A DNA stretch of 64,000 bases from NCBI GenBank assembly GCA_900169235.1, contig FWCC01000062.1, forward strand, positions 1 to 64,000, read 5' to 3'. Positions 900 to 59,547 of this stretch are shown here, piece by piece (position 1 is the stretch's first letter; each line of letters begins with the position of its first letter). The notes below the pieces were generated by a model, which was given only the letters and a program-made list of their open reading frames with translations, was not told the DNA's origin and made no database searches. The position numbers were made by a program, and so were the translations under genes. The DNA is from Zarea fungicola. Taxonomy: Eukaryota; Ascomycota; Sordariomycetes; Hypocreales; Cordycipitaceae.

Positions 900-1068
900 A
901 TTGTTACTTTTATACTGTATTTTACTGTATTATACCGTATTGATACCCTTGATATTAAATGAAAAGTAAACATATACTTGAACCATAGAGCGCCAATGTC
1001 CTGTTAGCCAATGCTACCACTTTCAAACACATCTAGACCAATATGGATCCGACAAGAACAAATCATTT

Positions 1069-3019
1069 CTAATCATACACCAGCTGCAAGTCATAAAACA
1101 GCTGCCCCGAATACCGCACCTTGAACCTAAACTCCCCCCTGATCCCCGGCGACGGCCCCCAGACCTGCCGCCGCGCCACCGCGTCCTTGACCCTCGCAAA
1201 GTCCCCCGCGTCCACCCTGTCCAGCTCCTCAAACGCATACCACGGCACCGCATACAACGCCGGCGTCCCAAACGGGTTCGCCAGCAGCGGCTCCAGCCCA
1301 GCCACCAGGCACGTCCGGCTCGTCCTGTTCCGCAGCAGCAGGCCCCCGCCGCCCTCAAACACGAGCCTCAGCGCGCCGCACACCACCGCCTCCTTCATCT
1401 CCGCCACCGCCGGCACGGGACTGAGGCTAAAGTTGATCTCGTACGACTCGGGCGGGTGCCCGATGATGGCCTCGTCGACGAATATCTGCCACGTCGGCGA
1501 GCGCGACTCCACCCGCACCACGTCGCCGCCGCCAAAGCCCCCCGTGTACGACGACGGCGTGCCGATGGCCGGGTGAAAGAGGATACCGTTTGCCATGAGG
1601 GACGGCATGACGCTGCTGGGTACAAAGACGGATGTCGTCTGCACTGTCTTGAGGATCAGGCCGCGACCCACGCGAGAAGTATACGCAGCAGTTGCAGTAG
1701 AACTTGTTGCAACACCACTACCATCACCACTACCATCACCGCTGCCGCTGCCGCCCTCTTCCGTCGTCTGTCCCTGCTGCTGCTTTTGATGGTACGCGTC
1801 CATGAAATACAGCAGCTTCCGCGGCGCCACGATGCGGTTCATCATGCACAGCGGAATCAGGTCAGGCCGCACCCGCACAAACAGCGTCTCGTCCTCGTGG
1901 GACATGCGCTGCAGCAGCACCGCCGGCGTGAACATGGCCTGCGACGCCTCCCGCCGCATGTGGCACGCCAGCAGCGCAACAAAAATGGTCCCTGACGCGT
2001 CTCCCGGAAACGGCGTCAGCGCCAGGTCCATCTGTACTCCGCGCCGCGACACCGCCGTGCTCGCCCCGCGCTTCATCCGCGTCGAGAGGTACTTGGACCG
2101 CCGCGGGATCAGCTCCGTGAAGAAGACGAAGCATTCCGGCCCGTCGGCGAGGAGGCCGGAAAATATAGGTGGTGGTGGCGGCGGCGGCGGCGCTCCATCG
2201 GCCGGTGGCTCGTCGTCGACAACGTGCCGCCAGACAAAGATGGACTCATCATCCGTGGCCCGGATGATTTCCTCCTGCAGCCGCTTAAACGCCTTGACGC
2301 GGCCCTCGCCGTACAGGAGCGGCATGTTTATGTCAAACAGCCCCAGCAGGCTGTATGCAATGTCCTCCTCGCGCGTCGTCTCTCGCCGCGCCGCCCAGCT
2401 CATCCGCTCCGCCACGGACGTGAGCTCCAGCAGCCGCGACACGTCGGGAATGTCCCTCGTCGGCGTAAAGTACAGCACCTCAGTCGGTATCCCTGTGATG
2501 GCGCGAATCTCAGCGCTGAGCGAACCTCTTGTTCCGAACCGCTCCCAGCTGTGGTTGTAAAACTCCACCTCCCGCGGCGCAATGAGCTCCTGGAGCGTCC
2601 AGCCGCGGGCGGGCGCAGCGCCCACCCACTGCGCTGCCCTCCTTGGTTTGGAAAGGGGACCAAGAGGCGGCAGAGGAGCTAGCCGTCGATGAGTCGGCGA
2701 GATCGGTGAGGTAGACAAAGCACACTTGGGCCCGCGCGTACCACTGGAACATGGAGTTGATGGCCTCGGTCAACTCGGCGCTGCTCGACTTGTCTATGCA
2801 GCATGTGTCGATCCAGATGTAGTCCAACTTCTGCGCCGCGGCCACCTTTGCACTACCCTTGATCTTGAGCCATCCCGACGACGACTTGTGTTTGCCGTTC
2901 TGAAGCTGCTCATAGACGACTTCACCGGCTTCCCACGTATGAGACAGAATGGCGTAGGGCGGCACATCACCGCTGGCAAAGACTTCGAGTTCTAAGCTGT
3001 GTGTGTTTAACAGCCGCAT
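1069..3019 (-). pseudogene. HET-domain (heterokaryon incompatibility) protein, frame disrupted
   Basis: Starts at the ATG at 3019 and runs to the stop at 1069. The first frame (3019 to about 2620) carries the HET N-terminal signatures: an AILSHTWEAGEV block near residues 23-34, YIWIDTCCIDK near 66-76, then an MFQWYARAQVCFVYL block. The second frame (about 2604 to 1069) carries the downstream signature RGWTLQELIAP, a WAARRETTREEDIAYSLLGLF block and a long variable C-terminus with Pro- and Gly/Ser/Asp-rich low-complexity tracts. The two frames are offset by one base and I found no GT-AG intron that joins them. A 13-nt excess at 2605-2617 inside a perfect hairpin would explain the shift. HET proteins trigger non-self recognition cell death between fungal strains. 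This copy is either a broken allele or carries a sequence error. Confidence 0.8.
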
Positions 3020-3519
3020 TTTTTCTCAAATTATGAGCAATAAAAATAATTTCAGCATGCTCGATTTTTTGGTATGGAGGGAGGGTGCTCGTTGTCTGCC
3101 CGTGCTCAAGTCTAGCTTGACGACTTGCAAAGCGGAGGCGTCGCCTCACCACCAACGCCGTCGACAGCCACCACTCACCATTTGGCTAGCCTGCAAAGTC
3201 CTGTTGCCGCATTCTTAATCACAATCTTCAGGGTAGGCCGCACCCCGCGTACAGAGTAATGTATTAACTAGTATCCATTGTCTATTTCTTGTACAACGAC
3301 GGTTCAAATCAGCCGTGTGCCCAGACGACACTGCAGGATGTAGTAGTCCGCATCCGCGAACCGCCCACGTCGCCTCCACTCGATGAACAAGGCCCAAAAC
3401 GTGACAAAACCAAAAAGAAAATGCTCCCAAGAAACGCCGGTTTAAAATTGTATCCCACTTCGTTGTTACACAGAATCGCTCCCTCCACTTTCTTCGTCTT
3501 CGTCTGATGCATATTTATT

Positions 3520-3946
3520 TTATAGGGCAATGGTGCCTCGTCTGTTTTCGCGTACGTGGAGCATGCCTTGGCAGCCGCAGAAGACTAGGAAGCCCTGCAA
3601 AAGCGGAAAAGAATTAGCAAACATGTGCGCATCTGCAGGGTAGAGATCAATGGAGCGTACAATGTAGACAAAGACGGCGGTAAAGATTGTGCCGGACATG
3701 ACGACGCCGTGCTCGGGTGTGGGATCATTCTCGCCGCCGACAAACTCCTCATGGCCGCTGCGGTATACAAACGCCAAGACGGTGAGGATGATGATGGCAA
3801 AGGCGGAGACGACGGTGCTATACAACAGAACAAGAGCAATGTCAGTATGTAATGCTTGGCCTGGCTTGTGGCGACGGGGCCATCGGAAGGGAGCTGCTCT
3901 CGACGTACCAAGACCAAGCATGGCCGGCGCTAACCACGGGCTTCAT
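3520..3946 (-). CDS. V-type ATPase V0 subunit f (yeast Ypr170w-b homologue)
   Basis: Small gene in three exons: 3946-3909, 3817-3661 and 3594-3520, giving 89 aa. Intron 1 (3908-3818) has GTACGT...TATAG. Intron 2 (3660-3595) is 66 nt, so it stays open in frame and is easily missed; it has a TAAT-type branch site, a pyrimidine tract and CAG. The spliced protein begins MKPVVSAGHAW and has two hydrophobic helices (about residues 13-31 and 59-76) around a hydrophilic loop HEEFVGGENDP. Start, loop and the second-helix FCG motif match yeast Ypr170w-b, the f subunit of the V0 membrane sector of the vacuolar proton pump. The match runs through both inferred junctions, which supports the splicing. Expected location: vacuole and Golgi membranes. 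Confidence 0.87.
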
Positions 3947-5225
3947 GATGGGTAGTATGGGCGCGCGAGTCGTGTAGAATTGGTGGGAGATGTTCTGTAA
4001 AATGGCGTCGTGGATTCGTTTGCTGGCGCAGATGGGATGAGATCGACGTTGGTTTCTGATGATGGATGCCTACAGCTCGGATTGAAGTGACGCAGGAGCT
4101 TCGAGGTCTTGCTTGAAGTGTGGAGACACCAGCCACAGTGTAGAAGTGGTGCCACGCCACAGCGACCGTTGGTGTGGCTCAGTCTACATTCCGGGCATGT
4201 TATGCGTGCAAGAAAGGAGACATGAAGATAATTATCAATTTAAATAAATTAACAATAAAAACAAAGGAATTTAAGAACTTAAAACTTTAACCACCATTTA
4301 CACTTTTGTCTAGTTTTTCTATTTGTCCTATATCTAATCCATGGACAGTGCCCAAGACATGAACACCGACAAGTCTTGGTAATTCAAACGCTCGAGTTGA
4401 CGACTTTTATTAAATTTGCAACCATAGACACATTTCATGAACGAGTACATAACATTGCAGCGCAAGTTAATGAAAAGAATATGCTTATATGATAACATAA
4501 TAAATCGACAAAGCATGTAAGACGTGGCTGGCCCACCTACTCGCACCACATCTTGTGGCGATATTATCATCCCCAACAATTTACAATCAAAATCGTCCGG
4601 CAGCCATTCCAGCACTTGCCATCGGTCTAGAACGCATATAAAATGCCTGATATAGCAACATCGGAAGCCCTCTCCGGCACCTGATTGGCCCTGTTTAACT
4701 GGGCTGAATCAGGCTGCAGGCGTCTCTCCAATATCAGCCGTGGGACAAAGCGGCTTAAAATCAAACACGAATCATTACTCGATATACCAGGCTAGCCTTA
4801 CTATTAGAGCCGGACCGTTTTGAAATGGATTTAGTGCAGCAGATAATAAGCAAGAAAAAACGCCACTGGTTGCTGACTGCTCGTTCAATGAATCATGAAC
4901 GAACCAGGTTGGATGGGCGGTAACCTAGCCTCTAGAAAATTAGCTTCTTAACTTGAACTAGGGGTACCCTTGTCTCTTGAATATTTGAATTTGTCATGTG
5001 AATGATTGAAAAATGAAGTCGACCGACAGAAGGCTGAATGAAAAGTAGTTGGAAAAGGAATGACAACAATAAAAAACAAACCAAAAATAAGAGTAAAAAA
5101 AGCAGCTGTACAAGTCCTGGCGACAAAAGGTAGAAAAAAAAGTAAAATGTACATGTAAAAATTTCAACACTTGATATACATAGAGTCAGTCATTCATTCT
5201 TCTTATTCTTTGGCCAATTTCTCTC
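3947..5225. other. Intergenic region, no gene seen
   Basis: Upstream sequence of the V-ATPase f gene and downstream sequence of the next regulator. It is AT-rich from about 4200 on. Open frames of 60-95 codons (for example 4334-4615, minus) show no motif and no splice support. Confidence 0.5.
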
Positions 5226-7416
5226 TCAAGTAAGGACATTAATCGGCTCATCATAGCACTGGTCCCAGCCCGTCTTGCCCGACGCCCAAAACGTGTCCAG
5301 CTTCTCCAGCAGGTGAAACGCGCCCCCGTCCGAGCCCGGCAGCCAGCGCATCCTGCCCACGTACTCGCGCAGCGTCTGCTGCTCCTCCTCCTCGTGGTTG
5401 CTAAACGCCACGCCCAGCACCGCGACCGGCCACATGAGCCCCTCCTTGGCCGGCGCCAGCGGCAGCGCGTCCTTGAACAGCTGGTACAGGTGCCGCCGGT
5501 AGCACTCCCGCGGGAGCTGCGTGTCTTGCGCTTCCATCAGGTACGCGTCCGTGCTGTTGTCCCCGACGGTGGAGTAGGCGTCGTTCGATGAGATTGTCGT
5601 CGTCGTGGAGTTTGGGGTGTCGGCCAGGGCTAGCGGCGTCGCTTCGGTCGGCGGATAGGTAAAGACGGATGCGAGCGGGCCCGGCAGCGAGAGAATGCCA
5701 TAGAGGGCGACGGCGAATTTAAAGACTTCCCCCGCTATCGGGTAGAATTCGTTCTTGGTCGAGTACTGCTCGTCCCAGACGTGCGGGTCAAAGTTTTGAA
5801 TCTTGGCAAAGGCCTCGCGGGCCAGCGGCACGAGCTCTCGTACCGCAAATACGTTCTCGCAGTGGATGACGAGGGTCCGCAGGTGTGTTATTCGTATTAG
5901 GGCTTGTAACAGGACAGTCGGGCACGGAAAGGCGTGGAACCCTGTGTGGGAGTAGGCTATGCGGATGTCTTCGTCGGACCAGTTGGACATGAGTCTGATT
6001 TGGTCATGGGCTGGGCTCGTGGAGTTGCACATCGTTGATGTTCTAGAAGTCATGTAAGAGACCGGGTGCAAGAGTAAGAAAAAGGCCCCAAGTGGCAGGC
6101 TGGTCACTTACACCAATGCGTATTGTGATTGTATTGAAGGCGGTTTTTTAAGCGTAAAGAGCGCAGGAATGCCGCCGTAGCTCTTGACTAAAGCGCCGTA
6201 ACCCTCTGCGTGGGCTCTCCAGGTTGGAATCGAAAGCGAAAGCTGCGCGGGTGGAATGGTACGTTAGTTGCCATGTTCCCTAGGTAGCGTTTTCATGCAC
6301 GCAATGTTACCTCGGTATTGATGAGATCGCAGACTCTATGTAGTACAAAGTAGCCATCCTGTGCCAACGCCATGTATCGATTCAGGTTGCTGACAGAAAT
6401 GGCCATTTGATTAAACAGACGCGCCCACACAGGACCGAGCGACGGTAACGCCCCGAATTTGGCCTGCACGCCGTGCGCGGCTGAGACGCACTGGACTTGG
6501 TGGTTTAGGATAAGCATGGTGAAACTGTCGGGGTCAAACATGCTGTTCATGAGCTTAGCAAACTCGTAGCTAGAGTCGTATGCGCTGTCGCCAGCGGCGT
6601 GGTACCCGTGCATGGGAATCATGACGGTAATATCTACGGAGGGTCTCATTAGCTCCGAGCGGGGTATTGAGCGGGACGTCTCATTCAATAGTCGTCGAGA
6701 GGAGAGACGAGGCAGCAGGAGGCGGGCAATGAGACAAATGGCTGCAACATACAATATTCGCAGGCCTCTTTGACGTGCCAGTCTGGTGAGGGGAGGCCCT
6801 TTGGTGGGATCGGAGGGGGCGAGGCGGAGGAGGACGCATCCGAATTGGGGCTCTCGGGCGTTTCGTAGACACATGTGCGTCCAGTGAGGGCGCATCTTTT
6901 GCAGTCTGGTTTTCCTTCATCACACTTGATGCGACGATTGCTACAGGCATGCCAATAGCCGTTTTGTGGTTAGTTGATATGGAACGCTTCACAGTCACGG
7001 CGATGGGATCTGAGTAAGCGAGCGGATAGATGGGATGAGAGCATGAGGGCGGATAAAAGGATGTGAAGAATGCCATGAAGGAGAAAAGAAAGCACGAACC
7101 GACAAGTGACGCATCCCGTCCTCACCCGCGCCGCCCAGCGCTTCTTCCTCGGCTGCGAGGCGTCTGTCCGGTTGGGGTTGGGCAGCACCTCGAGCGATCT
7201 GCTGAAAGTCTCCGAGTCCTCGCGCAGCTTCCGGACGACCGTCTTGAGGTCCGTCTCGCGGGGTTTGTTCAGCGACTTGGTAACGGCGACCTGATGCTCG
7301 ACGAACTCGCGGGCATAAGTCATGTTGGGCTCTCGGCCATTGACCAGGGACCGGGCAAAGGCATTGGAGTCTTCCTGGACCTGCCGTACCGCGGCGGCTC
7401 GGTCCTGGGCGTTCAT
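5226..7416 (-). CDS. Zn(II)2Cys6 fungal-type transcription factor
   Basis: Five exons: 7416-7100, 6940-6753, 6633-6311, 6242-6112 and 6042-5226, giving 591 aa with frame kept at every junction. The binuclear zinc cluster spans about residues 102-129 with spacing C-x2-C-x6-C-x6-C-x2-C-x6-C. It is split by intron 1 just after the second cysteine, a common place in this family. The remainder has the helical, hydrophobic character of the fungal-specific transcription factor domain (Fungal_trans_2 type), with a Thr/Asn-rich loop near residue 460. Unusually, about 90 residues of Arg/Glu-rich sequence precede the zinc cluster. I chose the ATG at 7416; an ATG at 7443 would only add codons made from a CTCTCA repeat. 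The target genes cannot be inferred. Confidence 0.88.
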
Positions 7417-38992: not shown

Positions 38993-39877
38993 ATGTTTCA
39001 AAAACTTAACCTATCATATAATTTCTTACCGGCAAATCCACCGGAGCCAGAGCCACCAGAAGACTCCAGCAACGAATTTGGAGATGTTCAATGGAAGCAG
39101 CATCCTCGCAAGCTGTCATATTGCTTGACAATTAAAGCCGCAGTTGTAATATTTATATTCATTCTTCAACTTGGGTTTACTTTGCATTTCCAACAAGCCG
39201 CCTCCCGATGCGCCAGAGGCGAGCTTGACAAGCCTCAAACGTTTGAGGCTAGGTTTGAAAGTGACCGAAATTATCAGTCGCTTGATCACCGATACGACAA
39301 CCTCTGGAATGAGACTGGTCAGTCTCCGATTGTAATGACCTCAATAGGCCTAAACGGTGGCCAAGCTCAAGTAGGCTCCATTACCATGTGAGTATGGCTG
39401 CCCTGTTGGATGTTTGGAAGTGCTAATGAAGCAAAGGTTTCATCAGCTTCATTGCTTGGCATCTCTACGAAAGGCACTTCAAGAGTCGCAAGAGGGGAAA
39501 AACATTGGCAAGGATTCAAAGGATGACGCGCATTGGCCGCACTGCTTGGATTATCTGCGCAAAGTATGTAGTTTCATTTCAATACCATCCAACCCCCACT
39601 GACATTCAGGCAGGCCATAATATGCTACGGCGACGACACCATTGAGCGGGCTGACTCATCCCCCGACGGGACTGGGCCAAAGGTTATTTCCGGGTTCCAA
39701 GACTGGCGAACTTGCCGTGATACGTCTCATATCTATACACTAAGATCCGAGAAACACTGTGTTACAACATGCTGATGCTGGCGGCTAGAGGATGTGGACA
39801 GTCGCCTGTGGAAAGTACACTCCTGGCCGACTACCTACGCCTTCGCAAGCCGATTGCTTGTCGCCATTAAGATGTAA
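38993..39877 (+). CDS. UstYa-like (DUF3328) RiPP-modifying protein, first copy
   Basis: Four exons: 38993-39387, 39437-39563, 39614-39716 and 39789-39877, giving 237 aa. UstYa-family proteins are membrane-anchored and needed for oxidative macrocyclisation of fungal RiPPs such as ustiloxin, asperipin and phomopsin. The typical plan is seen: a short cytosolic Pro/Glu-rich N-terminus, one membrane helix at about residues 47-66, then two HxxHC motifs, HQLHC at 134-138 and HWPHC at 164-168, the second followed by LDYLRKAIICYGDD. The last exon is short and its junction (donor GTGATA, acceptor GGCTAG) is the weakest. The C-terminus lacks the usual H-x-C-R-D-W ending, so the model may be slightly wrong there. 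It converges with the precursor gene. Confidence 0.83.
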
Positions 39878-40459
39878 GAGGAGAAGTTATCAGGAGTGAC
39901 ATACGATGGATCAATATAGGTAGCTATTGTAGCGAAGCTGTGTGTTAATTCATGCCTTTGCTTTGTTCTCATTCTTGTCCAATCTACACGTGGAGTCTGT
40001 GAACAAGGTTGGCCGTTGACATTGAACATTATAATTCCGCAAAGACAAATGAGTGATTAAAGGCATTCTGACTATGGAAGAGAGTTCATTTGGCTCACAG
40101 GATAAATGTGCCACAGAAACATTGTAGACTAGTTCATCTGCCTCACCGCCAGCGTTGTCTCAATCGTCAAAAAAGGCGTTGAACACTCACCTAATCTTAT
40201 TGCATGGGAACCTTCACAAATTGATAAACTTATTTAGCGCCAGTGTAAATGTTAAGTGAAAGCAGAAAATGCTAGGAAACAACCAAGTAGCCAGTAACTA
40301 TTTAACATCTATTGGAATGCCATTGGGTTAAATCAGCTTGTGCATCATATTGATCGACTTGAAACTATGCTACCACCCTCGTCAAGACAGGAGAAAGTAG
40401 CCCATTTGAGAGTGGCCCAATTTCATTGCGCTACTAGCTCTCAGCACCCTTACTACCTG
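39878..40459. other. Intergenic region between convergent UstYa and precursor genes
   Basis: About 580 bp of 3' flanks. No gene seen; AT-rich in the middle. Confidence 0.5.
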
Positions 40460-40504
40460 TTATTTGCAGTCCTCGTCATTCCAATCAAGAATATTTCCAA
40501 ACTC
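40460..40504 (-). repeat. Decayed fourth precursor repeat beyond the stop codon
   Basis: Directly after the precursor stop (40,525-40,523), in the same frame, 15 codons still encode a variant of the repeat core: Glu-Phe-Gly-Asn-Ile-Leu-Asp, then a Trp-Asn-Asp-Glu-Asp-Cys-Lys spacer, before a second stop at 40,462-40,460. Only the TAA separates it from the expressed repeats. It appears to be a relic of a longer repeat array. Confidence 0.7.
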
Positions 40505-40522
40505 CCACTTCTCGAGGATGTT

Positions 40523-40936
40523 TTACTCTTCAATACTCCATTTTTCATCCTCATCCTGCTCGTCAATAATGTTCAAGAACTCCCTTTTCTTGACGTTTCG
40601 CTCCGCATTGCCTGTGGTGCTCCATTTGTCGTCTTCATCTTTCTTGTCAAGAATGTTCAAAAATTCCCTTTTCTTGACATTTCTCTCTGCATTGCCAGTG
40701 GTACTCCATTTGTCATCTTCATCCTTCTTGTCAAGAATGTTGAGAAACTCGTTTCTCTCAAGCAGATGTCCCTCAGTGCGGAGAGAATTGCTGTCAGCTA
40801 TGTTTGGCAACTCACACAGAGCGTCAGATCTTAAAATATTGCACGAATATGGTGCCTTCATTTTGAACGTACCGGTTGGTGCTGCGGCAGTACCACCGAG
40901 CAGGATGAAGAGAGTCGAGAACGTGGAAAGCTTCAT
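40523..40936 (-). CDS. Candidate Kex2-processed RiPP precursor (dikaritin/ustiloxin-like)
   Basis: Single open frame of 137 aa. Residues 1-19 form a signal peptide (hydrophobic, ending AAA). A unique leader follows (about 20-62, two cysteines). Then come repeats at 63-90, 91-118 and a shortened third at 119-137. Each begins Glu-Phe-Leu-Asn-Ile-Leu/Ile-Asp, continues with an acidic Lys/Asp/Glu spacer plus one Trp, and the two full copies end Asn-Val-Lys-Lys-Arg. Lys-Arg is the kexin (Kex2) cleavage site. Secreted precursors with KR-separated repeats next to UstYa genes are the hallmark of ustiloxin, phomopsin, asperipin and epichloecyclin systems. The core is probably within the conserved Phe-Leu-Asn-Ile region, an inference. 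Product and activity are unknown. A signalling peptide or an unmodified secreted peptide is the alternative. Confidence 0.8.
   Translation of the reverse strand: MKLSTFSTLFILLGGTAAAPTGTFKMKAPYSCNILRSDALCELPNIADSNSLRTEGHLLERNEFLNILDKKDEDDKWSTTGNAERNVKKREFLNILDKKDEDDKWSTTGNAERNVKKREFLNIIDEQDEDEKWSIEE
40526..40750 (-). repeat. Coding tandem repeat, 84-bp units
   Basis: Unit 1 at 40,750-40,667, unit 2 at 40,666-40,583, partial unit 3 at 40,582-40,526. Units 1 and 2 encode the same 28 residues but differ at 10 bases, all silent. Unit 3 has conservative changes (Leu to Ile, Lys-Lys to Glu-Gln) and lacks the basic end. Confidence 0.92.
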
Positions 40937-41405
40937 TTTTCGTAATCAACTTTGGATACTGATTAAAATTGAGCAGTTGAGTGATAAAACCAAGATTTTT
41001 TTAATGTCCATGCAACAAGGTTGTCCCCCTTTTATAACTTTCTGAGCTTAACGTTGTAGGCTGCCTTGTATAGGTTACGTGATAGACCTGCCGTTCATAA
41101 AAGGCAACGTTATCTTACTGTTCTATTATTTACTAATGCAGAAAATGTACCTGAGTAATACGTCAAAGTCTATTGCTGAAGATATATACTAATTCCAGCC
41201 TCGGCAATAATCGGTACTGTAAAGGTCTTAGTCATGTGTGGTTGAATACTGAACCTTGCTAACATTTGCTGCCAATCTAGTCAGTGGCCTTAGCTGGACC
41301 ATTTGTCTTGGCAATCTACAACAACAGGCGATTTTGAAGCGTCAGTACCGTCGCGATTTTGCTGCGCTCTTTTATTTTTTCATGCTGGCAAGGCAAATCA
41401 AAATT
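40937..41405. promoter_or_regulatory. Divergent promoter, precursor and second UstYa gene
   Basis: 469 bp between two oppositely oriented start codons. It includes a TATA box for the precursor and a TTACGTGA element at 41,075-41,082 that resembles a Yap/ATF-type bZIP site. The layout allows coordinated expression of peptide and modifying enzyme. Confidence 0.55.
41029..41036 (-). promoter_or_regulatory. TATA box of the RiPP precursor
   Basis: TATAAAAG on the minus strand, followed by a G run, about 93 nt upstream of the precursor ATG. Suggests a strong, regulated promoter. Confidence 0.6.
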
Positions 41406-42375
41406 ATGGCCGAATACTCCACCAAATTTACTCTGTTAGACAATCGGCGCATTGAGAAGCAGGAATGGCAGGTCGACGGAGATGGACCGATCTCATTCGT
41501 GCTCCGAGCTCTTCGCATCTCATATAACACTGCTCACATTGTCGTGCTGTATGTCATCATCACCATTTTATCTGGCACTTTGTTGCTGCATGAAGGAGAT
41601 CCAAGCACGACACTTTACTGTGCGTCATACTCCCATTATGGCCATACAACCCTGCTAATTGAAAGTTAATAGCGCCTGCGACAAACGCGATCAAGTATAT
41701 AACCTACTTGTGGCCTGAAAACCTGGGACATAAGACTTCCTACATGGCTAATGGCCCTGATGGGATGCCAACCGATAGAACGGACCAGCTATGGAGTGAA
41801 CTTTACGAATGTGAGCTCTTCTATGGCTCACGACTGGCAACCAAACAGTCGTGAAGCTGCTTTCTTCTCCATTTGACTGACAGAATACAGTTGGAATCTC
41901 ACGACTGTCTTCATCTGAGGCCACCAAACTTCCTAACGAGACTGCAGCGCTTCCCAACGCCTCTGATCAGTACCCTATTCAGCTCGGCGTTTTTCACCAG
42001 CTCCACTGCCTCAATAATGTCCGCATGGCTCTATATCCAGAACGGTACTCGAATAAATTCCATGACCTCTTTGCAACGGATGTTAATGGGACCCGCTTCA
42101 ACTACTCCTCTCACGATGCCAACCATCTAAGCCACTGTATCGACACGCTCAGGCTCACTGTTATGTGCCACTCGGATGTGTCTCCACTCACTTGGGTATA
42201 TGACAAGGCGAAACGACAGCCGCTCCCGACGCTATATGTAGAGCACACTTGCCGCGACTTCGGTGCGATTCAGCAGTGGGCAGTGGACAGGGCCATTGTT
42301 GATGAGATGGAACTTGAATGGCCGCTTGGGTCGAAAGATGACTTCCAGTTCAAAGGAAAACCGGCAGACAACTGA
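41406..42375 (+). CDS. UstYa-like (DUF3328) RiPP-modifying protein, second copy
   Basis: Three exons: 41406-41619, 41673-41810 and 41891-42375, giving 278 aa, the usual family size. One membrane helix lies at about residues 44-61 after a charged N-terminus. The two diagnostic HxxHC motifs are complete: HQLHC at 153-157 and HLSHC at 196-200, the latter followed by IDTLRLTVMCHSD. The family's H-x-C-R-D-F ending (VEHTCRDFGAIQQWA) is present near residue 245. Several N-glycosylation sequons fit a lumenal or extracellular catalytic part. It starts divergently from the precursor. Together with the first copy it forms the pair often seen in ustiloxin-type clusters (UstYa plus UstYb). Confidence 0.9.
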
Positions 42376-43462: not shown

Positions 43463-46400
43463 ATGTACTCTGACCGCGATGGGACTGCTACCAAGCAGTC
43501 TCAATCCACCTATGACACGCACTTGCGATTTCTCCGCCTTGCTAGCAGTGTGCTGTCATCCATTGGTTTTGGAGCCGTGGCTACTGGCGGAGAATACAGC
43601 TGCACTCCTTCTCAGTGGTTGATTGACTGTATTTGGAGATGCAATTGGCACCACGCTGCCTCGTTCCTTTGGGTAGGTCTCCCAGGCGGCGCGCAGCTGA
43701 TCAAGTCGCATTTGGACTACATTCGTTTGCTAACAATTGCATTGTTCATAGCCCATTCTCTGTTTTCACAGCCTTGCTTTGTATATGAAGGAAGATCCTA
43801 TATCTACGTATCAATCTGCTCTTCGCGGCACACTGATGTCGTCGCTGCTGATCTACTCTCGACTGCTGATCCTGTTGACCGACGGAGAAGGCAGTAATGC
43901 CCCATCACTGGTCCCGCTCCAGCTCTTCTGCGCCCTCTCCTTTCTCGTTGTCCAACTCCTATTTCCACGTCACCCTCAAACTTTTTCTACTGATGGACGC
44001 CCTGTTGATGCTGAGGGCAGTTCCTCCCTGTTAGTCCGATTCTCAATGGTTTGGTGCCACAGCGCGCTTGACATCGCGGGCAAGTCAGATGATTTGAAAA
44101 CAATTCCAGAGTTGGGATACGAAGCAAGAGCATCAAGTCAATCCGTCATCACTGTGCCATCTCCTCAGCCGTACGTTTGGAATCGCATCCTTATAGAGCG
44201 CCTTCCTCTCTTCGTCAAGCAGTACACTGTCGTCTTTATGCGCGCCGGCTTTGCGCTTGGATCTCCGTACTGTTTGAAAGGCCTCTTGAAGAGCCTGGAG
44301 AGATCAGAACATGTGACTATTGAGGCCTGGATGTGGTTTGCGGGGATTGGTGCTTCTGCTACCGTCGAGACAATCGCGCTCAACTACACAGCATGGACCC
44401 AGATGTCAGAAATATGCATCCCTGTCAAGGCACAGCTCTTCACCTCCATCTTTCAGAAGCTACTGCGAAGAAAAGGCTTAAAAGAACAGAAAAATATATC
44501 CAAGCTAGTCTCAGAAACCCCTGACGTTATTAATGTTCTGTCAGCCGACGCCTCCTCGCTATCGTTTTACGCGGCCATCGCTTACCTTGTTCCTCTTCGG
44601 CTATTCAAGTTTGTCTTGGCTGTCTGGTTCTTATACAGGCTCCTCGGTTGGAAAAGTACATTCACTGCTGTTGTGGCAACCCTGGCATGCTTTTCTGGCC
44701 ACCATTCCACGGTCAAGCAGACAAACGTAGCGCGACAAAAGGTTCGGTCGTCTCGCGATCGGACGACGAGTGCCTTGAAGGAAGCATTATCTTCACTGCA
44801 CGAAATCAAATTTTCTTCCCTTGAACTGCAATGGGAAACACACATAGATTCTCTCCGCGAGCAGGAACTCCGTGAGCTGAGCTACAGTCGAACTGCTGCA
44901 ACCATTCGTGGAATCTGGTATACAGCTGCTCCGTTTATCGTTATTGTTTCTGTGCTTTGCACCTACCTATACTCTGGTGGATATCTCACTCCGTCTGTCG
45001 TATTTCCAATGATTACTGTGCTGCACCAGCTTCAGGAAACATTAAGTTTTATTCCGACGGCTTTGAAAGACTACTTCTACTCGAGTGACACCTCTGGCCG
45101 CATTGACAAATATTTGTCGTCATCAGAAATAGAATTGAAGATAGAGCCATCTCCATTAGGAACAGTTGTTTTTGAGGATGCTACTATTACGTGGCCGATG
45201 GACGACTTCCATAAGATGAGAGATTCCCAGAAAACAGAAACTGGACCTGGAAGGTTTTTACTACAAGGTTTAAATCTGGAATTTCCTTTTGGCGAATTGA
45301 GTATTGTGTCTGGAAAGATAGGTTCTGGCAAAAGCCTACTGCTCTCAGCTATTCTCGGCGAGGCTGAACTTCTGCAAGGTCATATCAAGGCGCCGTCTGC
45401 CGCAGGCTGTTCCGACTGTGTTGCATATGTGTCTCAAGTCCCTTGGTTGCAGAGTGGAACAATACAGGAAAATATTCTGTTTGGTAGTCCACTCGATCCA
45501 GACAGATACAATACTGTGGTGTCGTCCTGTGCACTGCTGCCAGACTTCCATGCTCTTCCTGATGGGGACCAGGCCAAAGTCGGACTGAGAGGTGTCAAGC
45601 TTAGCGGAGGACAGCGCACTCGGGTCAGTTTTGCTCGGGCTCTCTATTCTTCCGCAAAATTACTGGTTCTTGACGATATTTTCTCTACTCTTGACACAAA
45701 TGTGTCGAAGGAGATTTTATGCACTTTAACCGGAGAGCTCTGTAAGGACCGCACGCGGATTTTGGTGACACACCATGTCTCACTCTGCTTACCTTATGCC
45801 AAATACGTCGTTCACTTGGAAAATAACACAGCATCGTACGCTGGAGCGCCGGAAAGCGTCCCGCAAAACATACAGCATCTTGAAACAAAAGAGCCACTTG
45901 TATCAGGGTCTCCATCAAGATCGTCTTTTTCAAACGACAAGGATGTGACTAAAACGATCGAGACTCGAAACACAGTCCAGAAGAAAACACCCTCAAAGAC
46001 TCCGTGGCATATTTATCGGAGCTATTTCAAGACTGCGGGTGGTTTAAAATCCGCCATTGCCTTTGCATTCTGGATAGTTGCAAGCAGGCTGCTGAACGCT
46101 CTTTCATCGTACCTGTTGGGCCACATCAAGTCGCACGGCAAACCGCTAGCTGCTTCATCAGAATTGCACACGCTTCAAGAAGACTCGACACTGTTGCGTA
46201 GCATTGCTACGTATGCAGGTACTGTCGCTCTGGTGATTATCACAACATCGTTTTCAAAGCTCCAAACAGATGCTACAGCTTTGCGTGCGGCCAGGGTTCT
46301 GTTCCGTCAAATGATATTCACGTCACTTCGAATGCCTTTAACATGGCTGGATACAACATCAATAGGGGCAGTTCTAAAAGATTTCACAATCGATGTACGA

Positions 46401-47834
46401 GTTGTTGACGAGACAGCTCTTACAAGCCTAGCATTGTTTATCGACAGTGCTATTAATGTCCTCGTGGCGATTTTTATCGGGTAGGAAGCTTCACCACCTA
46501 TCTTACCACCTGCAGATGCTAATGAATCCAGCTTAAATACCTCCAAGTACACCAGCATAGCGACAGTTTTGCTTCTGGGTTGGTGCAAACGACTTGCGTC
46601 ACGCTACCATAAAGCCAGTTCTCTGGTGAAGCGCACTGAGGGAGTTTCGACAGCAGATATTCTCGAGCATGTAACAAACACATCTGCCGGGATAGCCACC
46701 ATCAGGGCGTTTGGCGCCAGTGATATGTGTATTAAAGCTATGGAGCGTTACATTGACGTAAACTCCACAGTAAAACGCCATTCTTCTATGTTTAGCCGCT
46801 GGTTAAATCTGCAGATGAGTCTAGCAGGCATCTTGTTTGCTATGGTCACAGGAGGTTTTCTTCTCACTTCCAGGTCTACAAACAATGTGACCTATATTGG
46901 GTTCTCTTTGACCTTTGTTATGGAATTATCTCGCATGATTAGCACTGCATTTGTCAAGTTTACGTCTCTTGAGGAATGCATGAATGCGATATCTTCTGTC
47001 ATCCAGTACATGGAACTCGATATAGAGGATCCAAGTGGCAACGACGTTGCCACTGATTGGCCACCTGAGGGCCTGATTGAGGTGCGAGATCTTCAGGTCA
47101 GCTATGCGGCTAGTCTCCCACCAGTTTTGAGGTCCGTATCTTTTCAAGTTAAGCCAGGGGAAAGAGTTGGTGTTGTTGGCCGCACTGGCTCTGGCAAGTC
47201 ATCTTTGATGCAATCGCTACTCCGCCTACTCAACACGCAAAAGGGGAGCATTAGCATTGATTCCATTGACATTGCTCACATTAAAATTGGTGATTTGCGT
47301 TCAAGAATTGGGTTTATTCCCCAAAACCCTACACTTTTCGGCGGGACAATACGATCCAATCTAGACTACTTCGAGCAGGTATCCGACGACAAGATTAACA
47401 ACGCACTGCGGCATGTCCAGCTTATGGCAGAGGAAGGTGATGCAAATGCTAGTAGTCACTTTACTGCTGAGTCACCCATTGCGGTGGGCGGCGCGAACAT
47501 ATCGCATGGGCAGAGACAACTACTATGCCTAGCCCGCATCATCCTCAAGGATCCCAAGATTATCATCCTGGATGAGGCGACGTCGGCTGTTGATGGCGAG
47601 ACAGATGCACTGGTACAAAAGGTTATCCGGAGCCTATTTCGTGGTACATTAATTGCGGTGGCACACCGTTTAGAGACGGTCGTGTCATTCGACAGGATTT
47701 TAGTTGTTAGGGATGGTGTTTTAGCTGAAGACGGGACTCCAGCAGAGCTGTACCACCGTCATGGGGCATTTTACAATCTTGTACAGGAAAGTCAAAATAG
47801 CGATTTTCTGAAAGAGGCTATTTTGAATGGATAG
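43463..47834 (+). CDS. ABCC-family (MRP-like) full ABC transporter, first copy
   Basis: Three exons: 43463-43672, 43752-46480 and 46532-47834, giving 1413 aa, the size of fungal ABCC pumps. Order: N-terminal membrane part, first membrane domain, NBD1, second membrane domain, NBD2. NBD1 shows Walker A GKIGSGKS near residue 590, signature LSGGQRTR near 687 and Walker B LLVLDD near 709, where the catalytic Glu is replaced by Asp as is common in ABCC NBD1. NBD2 shows GRTGSGKSS near 1196, signature ISHGQRQ near 1302 and IIILDEATSAVDGETD near 1323, so it is fully catalytic. ABCC pumps export organic anions, conjugates and peptides at the plasma or vacuolar membrane. Beside the RiPP genes it is a likely product exporter or self-protection pump. 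The first exon boundary is the least certain. Confidence 0.9.
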
Positions 47835-48204: not shown

Positions 48205-49702
48205 TTAATCGCAAGAGCAACATTCGCGCGACTTCTCTGCGGTAGGCAGCGATTTATAGACATCAGGCTCATGAGTAAGGTCCACCAATGTGGGCACTGC
48301 GTATAAATTTAGAAGCTGTGCGTCAAAGAGGGATATGAGGGTAGAATCTCTTACTTTGTTCATCAAATCGTCTCTCACTGCCAAGACATTGCACATGTTT
48401 ATACCTGCTGTAGGTTTACAGCCGCCTTCCCGATGAGAATCAAGGTCCACCAGCACCTGCAGCGGGATGTCCTCACGGGCTGCGCTAATCTCTGCATTTA
48501 GCAGGCCCTCTGCAATCCGGAAAATCTCGACATTCAAACATCGTCTCTCTAGCTGGTTCCATTGTCTCGAGGAGGCAAATATACCAGCGATGAGGTTTGG
48601 CAGCCGACAATTGCGACTCAGCCATTGCTCAGAGGTCAATGCGGACGATTCAATAAAGGTTCTACCGTAGTAAAGCGCCATTAATGAATCAAAATTATCA
48701 AACCCTTGCCTCTCAACATGGTCCAAGACAGATTCTATCCTCGTTTCTAATGGTATCTGTGCTGCTTCTATTGGCGACTTATTCTGATCGCTGCCGTGTC
48801 TCGTGGCCTCCGCTCTAGTCAGGGTTGTAGATGCATCGTTTGTTGAAGAGTGCTCGCTTAGCGGTGTGATGTTTCCAATACTCCCTGAGCCATCACATAG
48901 CGGAGAATTAAGATTCAGAGGTTGACCAAACCACAAAGGTGTCCATGAATGGTCTTCAGCTGGCTCGACATGTCGAATTTCGGATAGGCCTGGTCTATTC
49001 TCAGCATCAATTGTAAAGTAAGCAGTGATGGGACAATCGCACTCTCTAGGGCACTGTCTGATTCACTAGAGAGCAAGACACTGGGTCCATATTCAAACTC
49101 CATCAAATTAGTCACCCCATATTCTTCCCTATCCGCCAACCCCTGTATGACTTCTGGTGGTGTGATTGTAGTTGGTTGCGCAAGCATTGATGCATCCGTG
49201 GTTTGCCCTAGGTCTTCAGTAGAAGGAATGTCACCCATTGACCTTTCCATCGGCATCGACTGATCCGTTGCTTCTACCGCTGCATATTGTGTTGGCGACG
49301 ACTTGCTGGTATTCGACTTTGGATGGATTTCTCGTGCTGCTATGTCGGGTGAAGGCGTCAGAGAGGGCCTCAAGATTGGGGAAAAGTCGTCTCCAGGATT
49401 CTCGACGCTGCTACTGCCCAGCCCAGACGAATTTTCGTATTCATCAAGCTTCGCTTGTAGGTCTTTTAGGCGGGCTTTTATTCTACTTCCTAGTAGAGGT
49501 TAGCTTAAGCTCATGGTTTGTTTTAAGATGGAGCTATAACGGTACGATAACTTCTTTGGGCCACCCGGTTCTGCATCCGCTTCTTCTCCTTGGCGTTATG
49601 CGTTTTGCGCAAGTTAGCACTGACAACGGCGCAATCGGTGGTGGATTTTCTTATCGCATCGTCACTGCGAATTTGAGAGACAGAAGTGTTTGGGCTCGGC
49701 AT
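48205..49702 (-). CDS. bZIP transcription factor
   Basis: Three exons: 49702-49546, 49489-48935 and 48884-48205, giving 463 aa. The basic region is rebuilt across intron 1: KEKKRMQNRVAQRSYRSR with the invariant Asn45 and Arg53 spaced N-x7-R, followed by a short leucine-type helix (IKARLKDLQAKLDEY). The C-terminal third (FDNFDSLMALYYGRTF, then WLSRNCRLPNLIAGIF) resembles the conserved tail of a fungal bZIP group often found in secondary-metabolite clusters. Intron 2 (48934-48885, GTGGTT...CTCAG, 50 nt) restores the frame; without it the frame would be shifted. Sitting between transporters in the RiPP region, it is the likely local regulator, by inference. Confidence 0.82.
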
Positions 49703-54735: not shown

Positions 54736-57700
54736 ATGGAACTCAAGGTTTTCAAGCCTTTGCGAAATGGGCAGCTCGATTTCACTTTGCAATTTGAGAA
54801 TTTAATATTTGCCATTGCGCCCGCGAGCTGTGCGCTGCTTGCAGCCATTCTTGCTAGCGCCTCAGTTCGACCATGGCGTGGTCGTGGTCACGCCCAACAT
54901 TCAACCATGACAACGACAATTCAATACAGAGTATGATAATATGTTGTCCCATGGCTTCCTGTGATCTAATTAGTGTCTTTATAGACCGTTTTAGCGATAC
55001 TTGCCATTCTACATGCAACCTCTCTAGGTTTGTATTGTCGTCAGTCGGATGCCTCTAACTCATTCTCGCCCTCTGGCACTGCGGCTTATGTACTCAGATT
55101 AATTGCGTCCCTCTTCATCCCTCTTCAACTATATCTTTCAATTTCAGGCTCAAAACTTCTGACAGACATTTACTTGCTGGCAACTTGCGTTGCTGATGGC
55201 TTTCGCCTCCGCACGATTTGGTTCACGGCCCAGCACCAGGACGGACTTACAGTAAATGTTCTCCCTGCCTTGCAGACAGCTGTGGTTGTTATTAGCGGTC
55301 TCGCCTTGATTCTTTCCCAGGTCGTCTCCAGTCTCAAGAAGCACGCTGCAAGAAAGAACGCTGGACCGGCGCATGTGGACGAACCTGGCAGTGGTGTTTT
55401 TAGCATCCTCTTTTTCGGCTGGCTCTGGTCGTTGCTCCATCATGGCCGCAAAAGCTCAATTGCCTTCAGCGACGTACAGTCCGCCATCGCTCACTCCACA
55501 GCGACATTTGCACTTGGCAGTGAATGGATGTCTATGACGGATGGCGAGGATAAATTTATCATTGAAATCACCCTCCACTTCATCGGGGCAGTTGTCATCC
55601 AAATTCTCAGCGCTGGTGCTACTCTAGCGCAGCCCATCATTGTTCAAGGCATCGTGTCTTATCTGCAGAATGAACAAAACAAGTCAGTAGGAATATGGCT
55701 CTTAATCGCCATGGTATTCGAGTACGTTGACACCTCTAGCTCCATCTTTTCTCTGCCAGCCCATTCTGACCCCGTCTTCTAGTCAACTAGCCATCAGCCT
55801 TCTCGAGGCACATGGAACTCATGCGTTCAACCAGCTCTCCTTCAAGATTCGATCCTTTCTCATACACAAAATTGCACTAAGAAGTCTTCGCGGCTCGCCT
55901 CCCGATGGAGGCTGGAAAGCAGCAGCCGACAAGGTTTTGGTTCACGTGTCACAAGACTCTGTCGCCATTGCCGGGGCAGTACAATTGTTGGGCATGATTG
56001 TTCCAAACATTATTGTGGTTGGAATTGGCTCTTACATGCTCTTTCGACTCATAAACCTTGCATTTCTTGGGCCGCTTCTCGCTGCAATTGCCTGCACTCT
56101 ATTTCCCATGCTACTCTCAGGGCCGTTGTCGCGGAGTCAGCGGAATCTATTAGAAGCTACTGAGCGTCGCATTACAAGTGTTCAAAATCTCATCTCAGAA
56201 GTTAGGAGCCTCCGCTTCGGTAACATGCAACATGCCATTGAAGGCCAGGCTGCCCGAAACAGACGGCAGGAAATTATAGCTGCATCTATGTTTCGTCGCA
56301 TTCTCACTGTGGTTATTGTCGCAGGTGTGTTTATATGTCTGAGGCCATTAACCATATACTTTTTTATTAACTCTATCATCCAGCCACGATGCTTTCCAGC
56401 CTTGCTACATTGGCTGCTTTTGGCGGTTTCACGTTGCTGCCCCGGCACAACCTGGACTATGGTGTTCTCTTCACATCTCTGTCGACTATGCAAATCATGC
56501 TCACTCCTCTCTTATCAATAACACAAATGCTACCGGAGTTTGTTTCCTCTCTTGTAAGCTGGAAACGGCTTGCTTCCTATACCGAAATAGGCCAGCAGGA
56601 TCTGCCATCTTCCGGTTCTCCTGGGAACCCTCCCTCCACCTCTGAAAAATCTACATCACCGCAAGAGACTCAAATCGGTATGTCCAACCTCGCTATTGGC
56701 GCCAAAGGCAACCCGGTATCCATGGAGGATGTAACCGTCGAGTGGACTGCCGGCTCATCGTGCATTGAGCATGTCAGTTTCACATTAGCGGCTGGTCGTC
56801 TAGCAATTGTCGCCGGTGCCGCAGGTTCTGGAAAATCGAGCTTTCTCGCAGCCATTTTAGGAGGAGACATTGTGGTCAACGGCCGTTTAAATGTAGGCGC
56901 GAAGAAAGTGTCGCTTTGTGATCAGTCTCTCTGGTTCATTCCAGATATGTCAATCAAGGAAAACATTATTTTCGGAAAACTATTCGACCAGCATCTCTAC
57001 GCCAGAGTCATTGCTTGCTGCTGTTTGGATCGAGACCTGAGGGCCCTCGATGACGGCGACAGCACGAAGCTCAGCATCATCGGCTCACCGCTCAGTGGTG
57101 GGCAGCGGCGTCGTGTGGCTTTGGCACGTACGCTGTATGACTCTGGGGATCTGTTTTTACTCGACGATATATTCAACGGACTGGATAATAGAACAAGAAC
57201 CACGGTTGCTACTAATATCTTTGGCCCGAATGGCTTCATCCAAGAGACAGGTGCTGCCGCTATTCTGGTTTGTGCTGAACGTATGCCAACTTTTTCACTC
57301 AGTCGCTTCGGCTTTTTTGTACTGACGTCTCGTATCAGCCCCTGAAATAATGTCATCATTTGCTCGCACCGAATTCTACCTCCTGCAGAATGGCCGCCTT
57401 AGTATTGACTCAAGAAGTGCAGGTTTGGAGAACGCAAGGAGAGACGAACAGCCTCGGGACTCTCAGTTGACTCAACCAGTCGCGCCAACAGAACTCGCCT
57501 CATCTTCCAATTTAGCGAGAGAACAATCTCCGTTTGGAGACGAATATGACGTTGATGCATGTACACCAAGTGACAAGGCAAAGAGTTTTGAGGCGCACCG
57601 TGTGTATTTTAGGTCTTTCGGCTCTCCAATTATTGTCGCCGTCGCCGGCATCCTAATACTTACTTGGGTGGGCCTTGACAGAGCTGCAAGTGAGTATTTC

Positions 57701-59547
57701 TGGAAATTCTGCCAGTCTATAGCATTCATATGGCACGAGGCTGACCTGAATAGCTTTCTGGCTGTCGCATTGGGCAAGCCAATATTCGAATCTGGGCCGT
57801 GACATTGATAATGGATACTACATTGGAATCTATGTTGCAGTCTCCATGGCCGGTGTTTTTGCCGTATTCATTTCAGTTTGGATCACTTTTATGCGTATAG
57901 TCCCGGAAAGCAGCATTGGCCTCCACAACGACATGCTCTCGATTCTCACCAAGACACCCGCCTATACTGTTGAGCAACACAAGTCCGAAACGGTGAATAG
58001 GTTTACGAACGACATTGAAGCCGTGGATTTACATCTTCCTCAGGCTTTGCAAAATCTTGTTACTGCGATTGCATCCTCCGTTGGTTCCATGGTTGTCATC
58101 GGCATTGCCTCGCCATACACCTTGATCAGCCTTCCCATTCTTCTGCCGCTCATTTTCATGCTTCAAAATTTTTATTTGAAGACTTCATTTCAGCTTCGCT
58201 CTCTCCAAGTAGCTTCTCAGGCGCCTATGCTTCAAATGGTGGGCGCAATTCTGCAAGGTCGTGTTACTATTCGTGCGTTCAATCAAGAACAGTACATGGC
58301 TCGGCTCATGTCCGATTGTATAAATCGAGGTTTAAAGGTTGGCTATCTGTTTCGGTCGGTCCAGGTATGGGTTACATTGATGCTTGGCCTTATCAATGGA
58401 TGCCTGGCAATTGCTCTCGCAGGTTTGTTGATTGGCCTGGGCGGGTCAAATGGTATTGCATGGGGCGGCCTCGCGCTTCTCAATGTCATTCGGCTCGGAC
58501 AAGATGCCATGCTGCTACTCACATGGTGGACGAGATTTGAGTCTTCCATGGCAAGCATGGACCGCATCTGCGATTACACTCGGCGTACGCCACAAGAGCA
58601 AGTTCAATTTCCTGAAGTTCATGTCGGAAGCGCGTGGCCGGAGGGTGGACGGATCCAGCTCAGAGATTTATCGCTCACTTATAGGTAAGCTCTCCCTTTT
58701 TTTCAGTCGCTCGTAGCTCTCCATCAGGACCTTTGCTAAACCTTCATGATAGGTCGCGCCAAATCGTCAAGGACTTGAGCATTTCTGTTCCAGCAGGGAC
58801 TAAAGTCGCAATTCTGGGTAGAACTGGCAGGTGAGAACTTCTAAAGACGTGAAAGCCGTATTATAATCAAATACTAATCAATTAAATCAGTGGTAAAACA
58901 TCTTTGCTGCAGTCCTTCTTTGGATTGATTCGCCAGACGGGCGGCACTCTTGAAGTCGACGGTGTTGACATCTCGTCTGTCTCGAACAACGCACTGCAGT
59001 CGCATTTAGTCGGACACTCGCAGATCTTTGTCGCAAATTCTAGCGCAACTGTCAGGCAAAATCTTGACATAGGTGGGAGAGTTGCTGATTCTCACATTCA
59101 GTCTGTGCTGTCTTCTCTTGCTGCACAGCACATGGCGGACGACATCATGTCTAAGCTAGATTCAAAATGGAGCGAGTGCAATTTCTCCGACGGCTGGCAG
59201 CGCGTCATCGGCCTCGCACGCACGCTGCTACGTGACTCGAGTATATATGTCATGGATGAGCCTACGAGTGGGTATGTATCGATATCTCATTGAAATACTG
59301 CAATCTTTGCGATTGTGCTAACTGCCATTGTAACAGAATGGATGAAGAAAGCCACATTCTGGCCCTGGAAGCCATCTTTGACCGCTTGTCCGAGAAAACT
59401 GTTTTAACCACTACACATACACTGGCTGGTATTACCAAATTTGACCACGTTATAGTCATGGAGGATGGATGCCTAGTCGAGCAAGGTTCACCGACAACCC
59501 TACTAGCTCTTGAGGGCAGTATGCTAGCTCAGCTTCTTCGCGCATAG
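54736..59547 (+). CDS. ABCC-family (MRP-like) full ABC transporter, second copy
   Basis: Nine exons: 54736-54930, 54985-55721, 55783-56324, 56384-57280, 57339-57689, 57754-58684, 58753-58830, 58891-59271 and 59337-59547, giving 1440 aa. NBD1 has Walker A GAAGSGKSS near residue 636, signature LSGGQRRR near 727 and Walker B LFLLDD near 747. NBD2 has Walker A GRTGSGKTS near 1240, split by an intron between GS and GK, and a Walker B with Glu (YVMDEPTSG) near 1362. Its signature motif is FSDGWQR instead of LSGGQ, an unusual loss of the Gly-Gly-Gln core. The gene has far more introns than the first ABC gene, so the two are not a recent duplication. The role is probably efflux of a metabolite; whether it belongs to the RiPP cluster is uncertain. 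Confidence 0.9.

Follow-up and report, generated by a model that had tools for sequence, protein, structure and literature searches.

What is the product of a locus in which a Kex2-type repeat precursor lies directly between two UstYa (DUF3328) genes, if the repeats contain no Tyr? The cross-links of ustiloxin, phomopsin, asperipin and epichloecyclin are reported to run through Tyr (PMC7329392, PMC9233826), and our literature searches retrieved no paper on the peptide letters of this repeat or on Zarea, and none joining UstYa, Kex2 and Cordyceps.

A precursor gene flanked by two UstYa genes

The window, that is, the whole stretch of DNA analyzed, comprises bases 1-64000 of contig C167 in a genome of 43.1 Mb and 456 contigs, and its genes carry fungal-type introns. 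Across positions 38993-42375 the gene order is UstYa1, precursor, UstYa2, with the precursor in the middle and on the opposite strand (Table 1). The first-pass annotation had described a KR-repeat precursor between two UstYa proteins, both with paired HxxHC motifs, and this description is borne out. A PF11807 profile search of the region matches both UstYa genes above the cut-off of 25 bits, a KR-repeat open frame lies between them, and two motifs are found in each protein (HQLHC and HWPHC in UstYa1, HQLHC and HLSHC in UstYa2).

Table 1. Positions and supporting evidence for features in and beside the locus
Feature	Position	Strand	Basis
UstYa1, UstYa family (DUF3328), 227 aa	38993-39387, 39437-39563, 39614-39775	+	PF11807 76.8 bits, E 2.8e-21
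Precursor gene, 112 aa spliced	40523..40936; exon 1 40873-40936, exon 2 40523-40797	-	homologue P0001
Putative precursor intron, 75 nt, GTACGT...CATAG	40798..40872	-	residues absent from Zarea protein
Repeat 1, EFLNILDKKDEDDKWSTTGNAERNVKKR	40667..40750	-	tandem-repeat scan, translation
Repeat 2, 28 residues identical to repeat 1	40583..40666	-	translation
Repeat 3, degenerate, without KK site, EFLNIIDEQDEDEKWSIEE, C terminus	40526..40582	-	translation
Intergenic stretch between divergent precursor and UstYa2, 469 bp	40937..41405	.	arrangement
UstYa2, UstYa family, 278 aa	41406-41619, 41673-41810, 41891-42375	+	PF11807 149.4 bits, E 1.8e-43
ABC transporter, looks ABC-C type	43463..47834	+	PF00664 and PF00005 in ORFs 43779-46484, 46485-47834

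UstYa1 has one hydrophobic stretch, which is likely a transmembrane segment. The two UstYa proteins are 22% identical and have separate sets of closer relatives, and from these comparisons we read them as apparent members of two different UstYa subfamilies. Protein searches gave 8 matches for UstYa1, one of which is the window itself (relatives P0003-P0009), and 41 for UstYa2, the best being Beauveria bassiana ACQRIT_000486 (74%). Zarea is absent among the named matches of both searches.

In an AlphaFold model of P0010, a Beauveria relative of UstYa2 (mean pLDDT 75), the two motifs sit on helices 149-163 and 193-210, and a further helix at 39-59 would be fit for a membrane anchor. The model is in keeping with the description of CctR, a UstYa relative reported to be dimeric and O2-dependent, with a binuclear copper site at the HxxHC pair (PMC12435403). 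A Foldseek search with the same model returned 32 weak matches and no solved structure at E <= 0.001, and UstYa2 matched no PDB sequence.

The precursor gene and its homologue

The repeat array recognized in the first-pass annotation is present, but reading the precursor unspliced, as the 137-aa open frame on the minus strand at 40523-40936, is very likely incorrect. The sole homologue found, Zarea fungicola NQ176_g1525 (118 aa), lacks the stretch that follows the signal-peptide-like start (approximately residues 22-46 of the open frame). A 75-nt, frame-preserving GT..AG intron accounts for this gap, and it is very likely, judging from the sequences compared, that such an intron had been overlooked. 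After its removal, 91 of the 112 aligned residues are identical. NQ176_g1525 holds three repeat units as well.

The homologue search covered 5.8 billion proteins, from which 39 candidates were scored, and it detects relatives that have short exact words in common with the query. It returned no Beauveria precursor, though Beauveria holds the best UstYa2 relative. Missed annotation of a small gene, or merged gene models, could be the cause both of this absence and of that of a Zarea-named UstYa protein. A sequence search of the genome for a precursor paralogue returned only the precursor itself.

The precursor N terminus, MKLSTFSTLFILLGGTAAA, resembles a signal peptide according to a crude hydrophobic-stretch rule and reading. 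Downstream are three EFLNILD-KK-DEDDKWSTTGNAERNV-KKR units, the third of them degenerate. KKR precedes repeats 2 and 3, and ER, not KR, precedes repeat 1. The 84-base tandem array (40534-40750) has the highest tandem-repeat score in the window (322; the runner-up scores 120), and a dibasic-repeat scan of the 64 kb gave no second match. The precursor has three repeats of at least 8 aa at Kex2 sites; Umemura 2020, as described there, accepted KR, KK, RK and RR as cut sites and asked for at least three repeats (PMC7329392).

Constraint on the repeats

Repeats 1 and 2 differ by 10 bases in 9 codons, and every difference is synonymous. A simple model of equal rates, applied to the 14.8 silent and 69.2 replacement sites, gives this pattern P ~3e-8. 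Because ten silent changes have accumulated with no amino-acid change, the peptide itself is under constraint. Repeat 3 differs from each of the other two by 7 replacements over 19 codons and therefore lies outside this constraint.

The six units from the window and the Zarea protein agree without exception at eight positions (E1, N4, D7, D10, E11, D12, W15 and S16). N20, E22, R23 and V25 are invariant in the five units of this set that are long enough, and KKR is present in four. Tyr occurs in none of the six.

Precursors at other UstYa loci in the genome

PF11807 has 55 exon-level matches in the genome, which were grouped into 34 regions beyond the studied locus; 29 of these were read. Precursors with dibasic repeats are present in nine (L011, L012, L016, L017, L020, L022, L030, L032 and L038), and the scan found none in the other 20. 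The L022 precursor has two repeat copies and the other eight have three or more. As controls, codon-block-shuffled sequence (6.1 Mb) yielded one match in the scan, and the rest of the window yielded none. Ten UstYa-linked precursors, including the studied one, are thus seen in this genome; being rich in such loci, it should be a good source for product discovery.

When one representative unit is taken from each of the nine precursors, Tyr is present in eight; L017 and the window precursor are without it. In L032 the Tyr sits in an acidic spacer piece and not in the NNRGGIPW piece. The scan had picked up L017 by RR pairs read out of frame; the actual frame (2600-3151, minus strand) has six units with KK sites. 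The window precursor is consequently neither the only one of its kind in the genome nor the only Tyr-free one.

Candidate core peptide

Across the six repeats, conservation of the spacer, DEDDxWSTTGNAERNV, roughly equals that of EFLNILD. Since conservation spans the entire unit, constraint alone marks no short core. Comparison with other precursors suggests that the likeliest core would be EFLNILD, bounded by KR and KK; the next likeliest would be a longer unit that takes in the invariant Trp. EFLNILD is our first choice because the layout of the L022 precursor, KR-YTPVKYFGEAA-RR-DEADESTTA-KR, runs from KR through core, RR and acidic spacer to KR, matching KR-EFLNILD-KK-DEDDKWSTTGNAERNV-KKR. 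Fungal Kex2 is reported to cut at KR or RR, with KK as a lesser site (PMC6339444). Several precursors of the genome have the order spacer-core-KR, for example GDILYNNPAGWG-KR and DYIAYGA-KR. Two features speak against EFLNILD as the core: repeat 3 has no KK site, and conservation extends to the spacer, where one Trp is invariant.

Surrounding genes

The ABC transporter lies ~1.1 kb downstream of UstYa2 if its start is at 43463, and by reading it may contain an intron near 46481. From its position, it is a possible exporter of the product. Likewise, the divergent arrangement of precursor and UstYa2 makes the stretch between them a possible shared promoter. A short list of simple promoter patterns revealed no clear site common to this stretch and the region upstream of UstYa1.

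Of the nine exon-level matches to tyrosinase (PF00264) in the genome, none is on contig C167. Two other UstYa regions (on contigs C157 and C43) have a tyrosinase match within about 0.5 and 6 kb. An exon-by-exon search of the genome for S41 peptidases (PF03572) gave no match at E <= 0.001; the same search was positive in 10 of 14 control genomes. Among the window ORFs scanned against Pfam, a selection of large ones, there is no methyltransferase and no reductase beside the UstYa genes, the one short-chain dehydrogenase being 20 kb away.

Relation to known systems

The locus is best read as belonging with the UstYa-linked, Kex2-processed repeat precursors (dikaritins in the wide sense), to which it adds a Tyr-free member. 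The Pfam matches and paired motifs support this RiPP-type assignment, as do the purely synonymous differences between repeats 1 and 2 and the fact that nine of the 29 further UstYa regions examined contain a dibasic-repeat precursor. The class proposed in the first-pass annotation can therefore be retained, whereas the likeness it drew to ustiloxin, phomopsin, asperipin and epichloecyclin is weaker, given the missing Tyr. The kind of system is already known; what would be new is the chemistry that this Tyr-free precursor may undergo.

Ustiloxin and phomopsin precursors are described as having, like this one, a signal peptide, dibasic-separated repeats and two or more UstYa proteins (PMC7329392). 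Their cores, however, carry a Tyr-to-Ile ether whose formation is reported to need tyrosinase (PMC7329392). As the repeat lacks Tyr and the contig lacks a tyrosinase match, Tyr-ether chemistry of this type is unlikely here, and the absence of Tyr rules out the known Tyr-based rings in the repeat. Cluster peptidases of the ustiloxin and phomopsin type belong to family S41, of which the exon-by-exon search found no member in the studied genome.

Victorin, from Cochliobolus victoriae, offers a parallel in that its precursor is described as multi-core and Kex2-type and its ring as joining Phe to Leu, free of Tyr; it differs in its reported chlorination and cluster-encoded peptidases (PMC9233826). 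EFLNILD contains Phe and Leu, the residue pair that is linked in victorin. To our knowledge, the victorin core sequence is unrelated to the studied repeat.

Asperipin-2a resembles the locus in that few genes are involved, among them those for a UstY-type enzyme and a transporter, and, as described, no tyrosinase is needed (PMC12048977). In contrast to the two UstYa proteins and Tyr-free repeats found here, it is reported to depend on one UstY enzyme and a reductase and to contain two Tyr links (PMC12048977, PMC9233826).

The 1,758 Kex2-processed repeat proteins near DUF3328 genes in Umemura 2020 have the same anatomy (PMC7329392). According to that report, a DUF3328 gene lies near 22% of 7,878 KEPs (mean distance, 3.09 genes); Tyr occurs in 65.6% of the repeats of these DUF3328-near KEPs, leaving about a third without it (PMC7329392). 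The types that its main text associates with Cordyceps and Beauveria (G-5, G-6 and G-10) all contain Tyr, unlike the studied repeat (PMC7329392).

Proposed product and alternative readings

For this locus, Tyr-ether chemistry is less plausible than a cross-link based on Phe (as in victorin) or on Trp, or else a peptide that is hydroxylated or linear. We favor the first of these, with a probability of roughly 0.6: the three genes make a small secreted peptide that both UstYa proteins cross-link oxidatively at Phe or Trp and not at Tyr. The predicted signal peptide would direct the precursor into the ER, and Kex2 in the Golgi would cleave after KKR and perhaps at KK. The two presumably membrane-anchored UstYa proteins, each with one HxxHC-x(n)-HxxHC site, would then oxidize every unit, as expected from their family. 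The peptide, which we infer to be cyclic, would be completed by carboxypeptidase trimming and exported, perhaps through the neighboring ABC transporter. Several observations weigh against the proposal: the named homologues of the precursor and of UstYa2 come from different species, the spacer is conserved, ER precedes repeat 1 and repeat 3 has no KK, the contig has no tyrosinase match, the exon-by-exon search found no S41 peptidase in the genome, and the scan saw no precursor in 20 of the UstYa regions.

A more specific version of this proposal is tentative and, we think, somewhat doubtful: a copper-dependent pair of UstYa proteins from two subfamilies might link Phe to Leu or Ile in EFLNILD (or Trp to a neighbor) with neither tyrosinase nor cluster peptidase, which would be a new ring chemistry achieved by a minimal set of genes. 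If so, the VDPHNRFW-KK units of the second Tyr-free precursor in the genome would offer a sister case. Should the main proposal hold, the UstYa-linked peptides would gain a precursor family whose known members are those of the window and Zarea fungicola (NQ176_g1525), and the locus, with one precursor and two enzymes, would be a compact test of how the copper UstYa family acts without tyrosine.

A rather unlikely competitor is a linear, Kex2-processed peptide of signaling or effector type, with the 25-aa unit EFLNILDKKDEDDKWSTTGNAERNV, whose UstYa neighbors are incidental or serve another product. The entire 28-residue unit is conserved, beyond any short core, and has no Tyr; ~78% of KEPs are reported to lie away from DUF3328 genes (PMC7329392), and the named precursor homologue (Zarea) and the best UstYa2 relative (Beauveria) come from different species. 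However, a UstYa gene adjoins the precursor on either side, the precursor has its divergent upstream stretch in common with UstYa2, and repeat precursors recur beside UstYa genes elsewhere in the genome, as noted above.

It is rather improbable that the UstYa proteins hydroxylate, dehydrogenate or halogenate side chains to yield a modified linear peptide with no ring. Members of the family are reported to hydroxylate (CctR), to halogenate (ApnU) and otherwise to oxidize C-H bonds (PMC12435403), and the candidate core has many aliphatic side chains but no Tyr. On the other hand, the UstYa proteins encoded beside the KR-repeat precursors of ustiloxins, phomopsins and asperipin-2a are described as acting in cyclization (PMC7329392, PMC9233826), and two UstYa proteins of different subfamilies would permit both kinds of step. 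Finally, it is extremely improbable that the repeat frame is no gene at all, having arisen by chance or as the antisense of a repeat carried by the opposite strand: long plus-strand frames do cross the array (40410-41045, 211 aa), but it is the minus frame that has the silent-only divergence, the signal-peptide-like start, the frame-preserving intron and the annotated homologue.

Repeat precursors in other UstYa regions of the genome

Clear KR-repeat precursors that contain Tyr are found in five other UstYa (PF11807) regions of this genome (L011, L012, L016, L020 and L030). Examples among these carry seven copies of TV[K/H]QNGDILYNN[P/G]AGWG or 10 copies of [D/E]YIAYGA.

Region L017 holds a second precursor without Tyr, and five of its six units are followed by KKEE. 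No dibasic site other than KK separates these units, which suggests that KK serves as a processing site in this fungus.

The precursor in L032 includes a hydrophobic piece that lacks Tyr. In L038, the three units of a short ORF end in KR, and two UstYa matches lie close to it. A relative of UstYa1, the first UstYa-family gene of the main locus, is present in L029, where a dibasic-repeat scan of the region found no repeat precursor.

Repeat precursors and a UstYa1 relative in other UstYa regions
Region	Feature	Position	Strand	Context
L011	Tyr-containing KR-repeat precursor	3936-4640	-	UstYa region
L012	Tyr-containing KR-repeat precursor	2007-2513	-	UstYa region
L016	Tyr-containing KR-repeat precursor	6593-6937	+	UstYa region
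L017	Tyr-free precursor, six VDPHKVDPHNRFW units	2600-3151	-	UstYa region
L020	Tyr-containing KR-repeat precursor	3543-3845	-	UstYa region
L029	UstYa1 relative	4153-4513	+	adjoins another UstYa match
L030	Tyr-containing KR-repeat precursor	4668-5177	+	UstYa region
L032	Precursor, KEENNRGGIPWKR alternating with EDDDIYKR	1025-1336	-	UstYa region
L038	Short ORF, three SSVYKSYMADR units	3023-3193	-	UstYa region

Tyrosinase matches near UstYa genes

On contig C157, a tyrosinase match lies ~0.5 kb from the UstYa match of L020, the region that also carries a repeat precursor. On contig C43 (L036), the corresponding distance is ~6 kb. The genome may therefore contain ustiloxin-like gene sets at other sites.

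Other genes in the window

Minus-strand ORFs at 48205-49499, located between two ABC genes, have no Pfam match; judged by eye, they perhaps encode a regulator. Exon pieces of a second ABC transporter are found at 54985-59293 on the plus strand.
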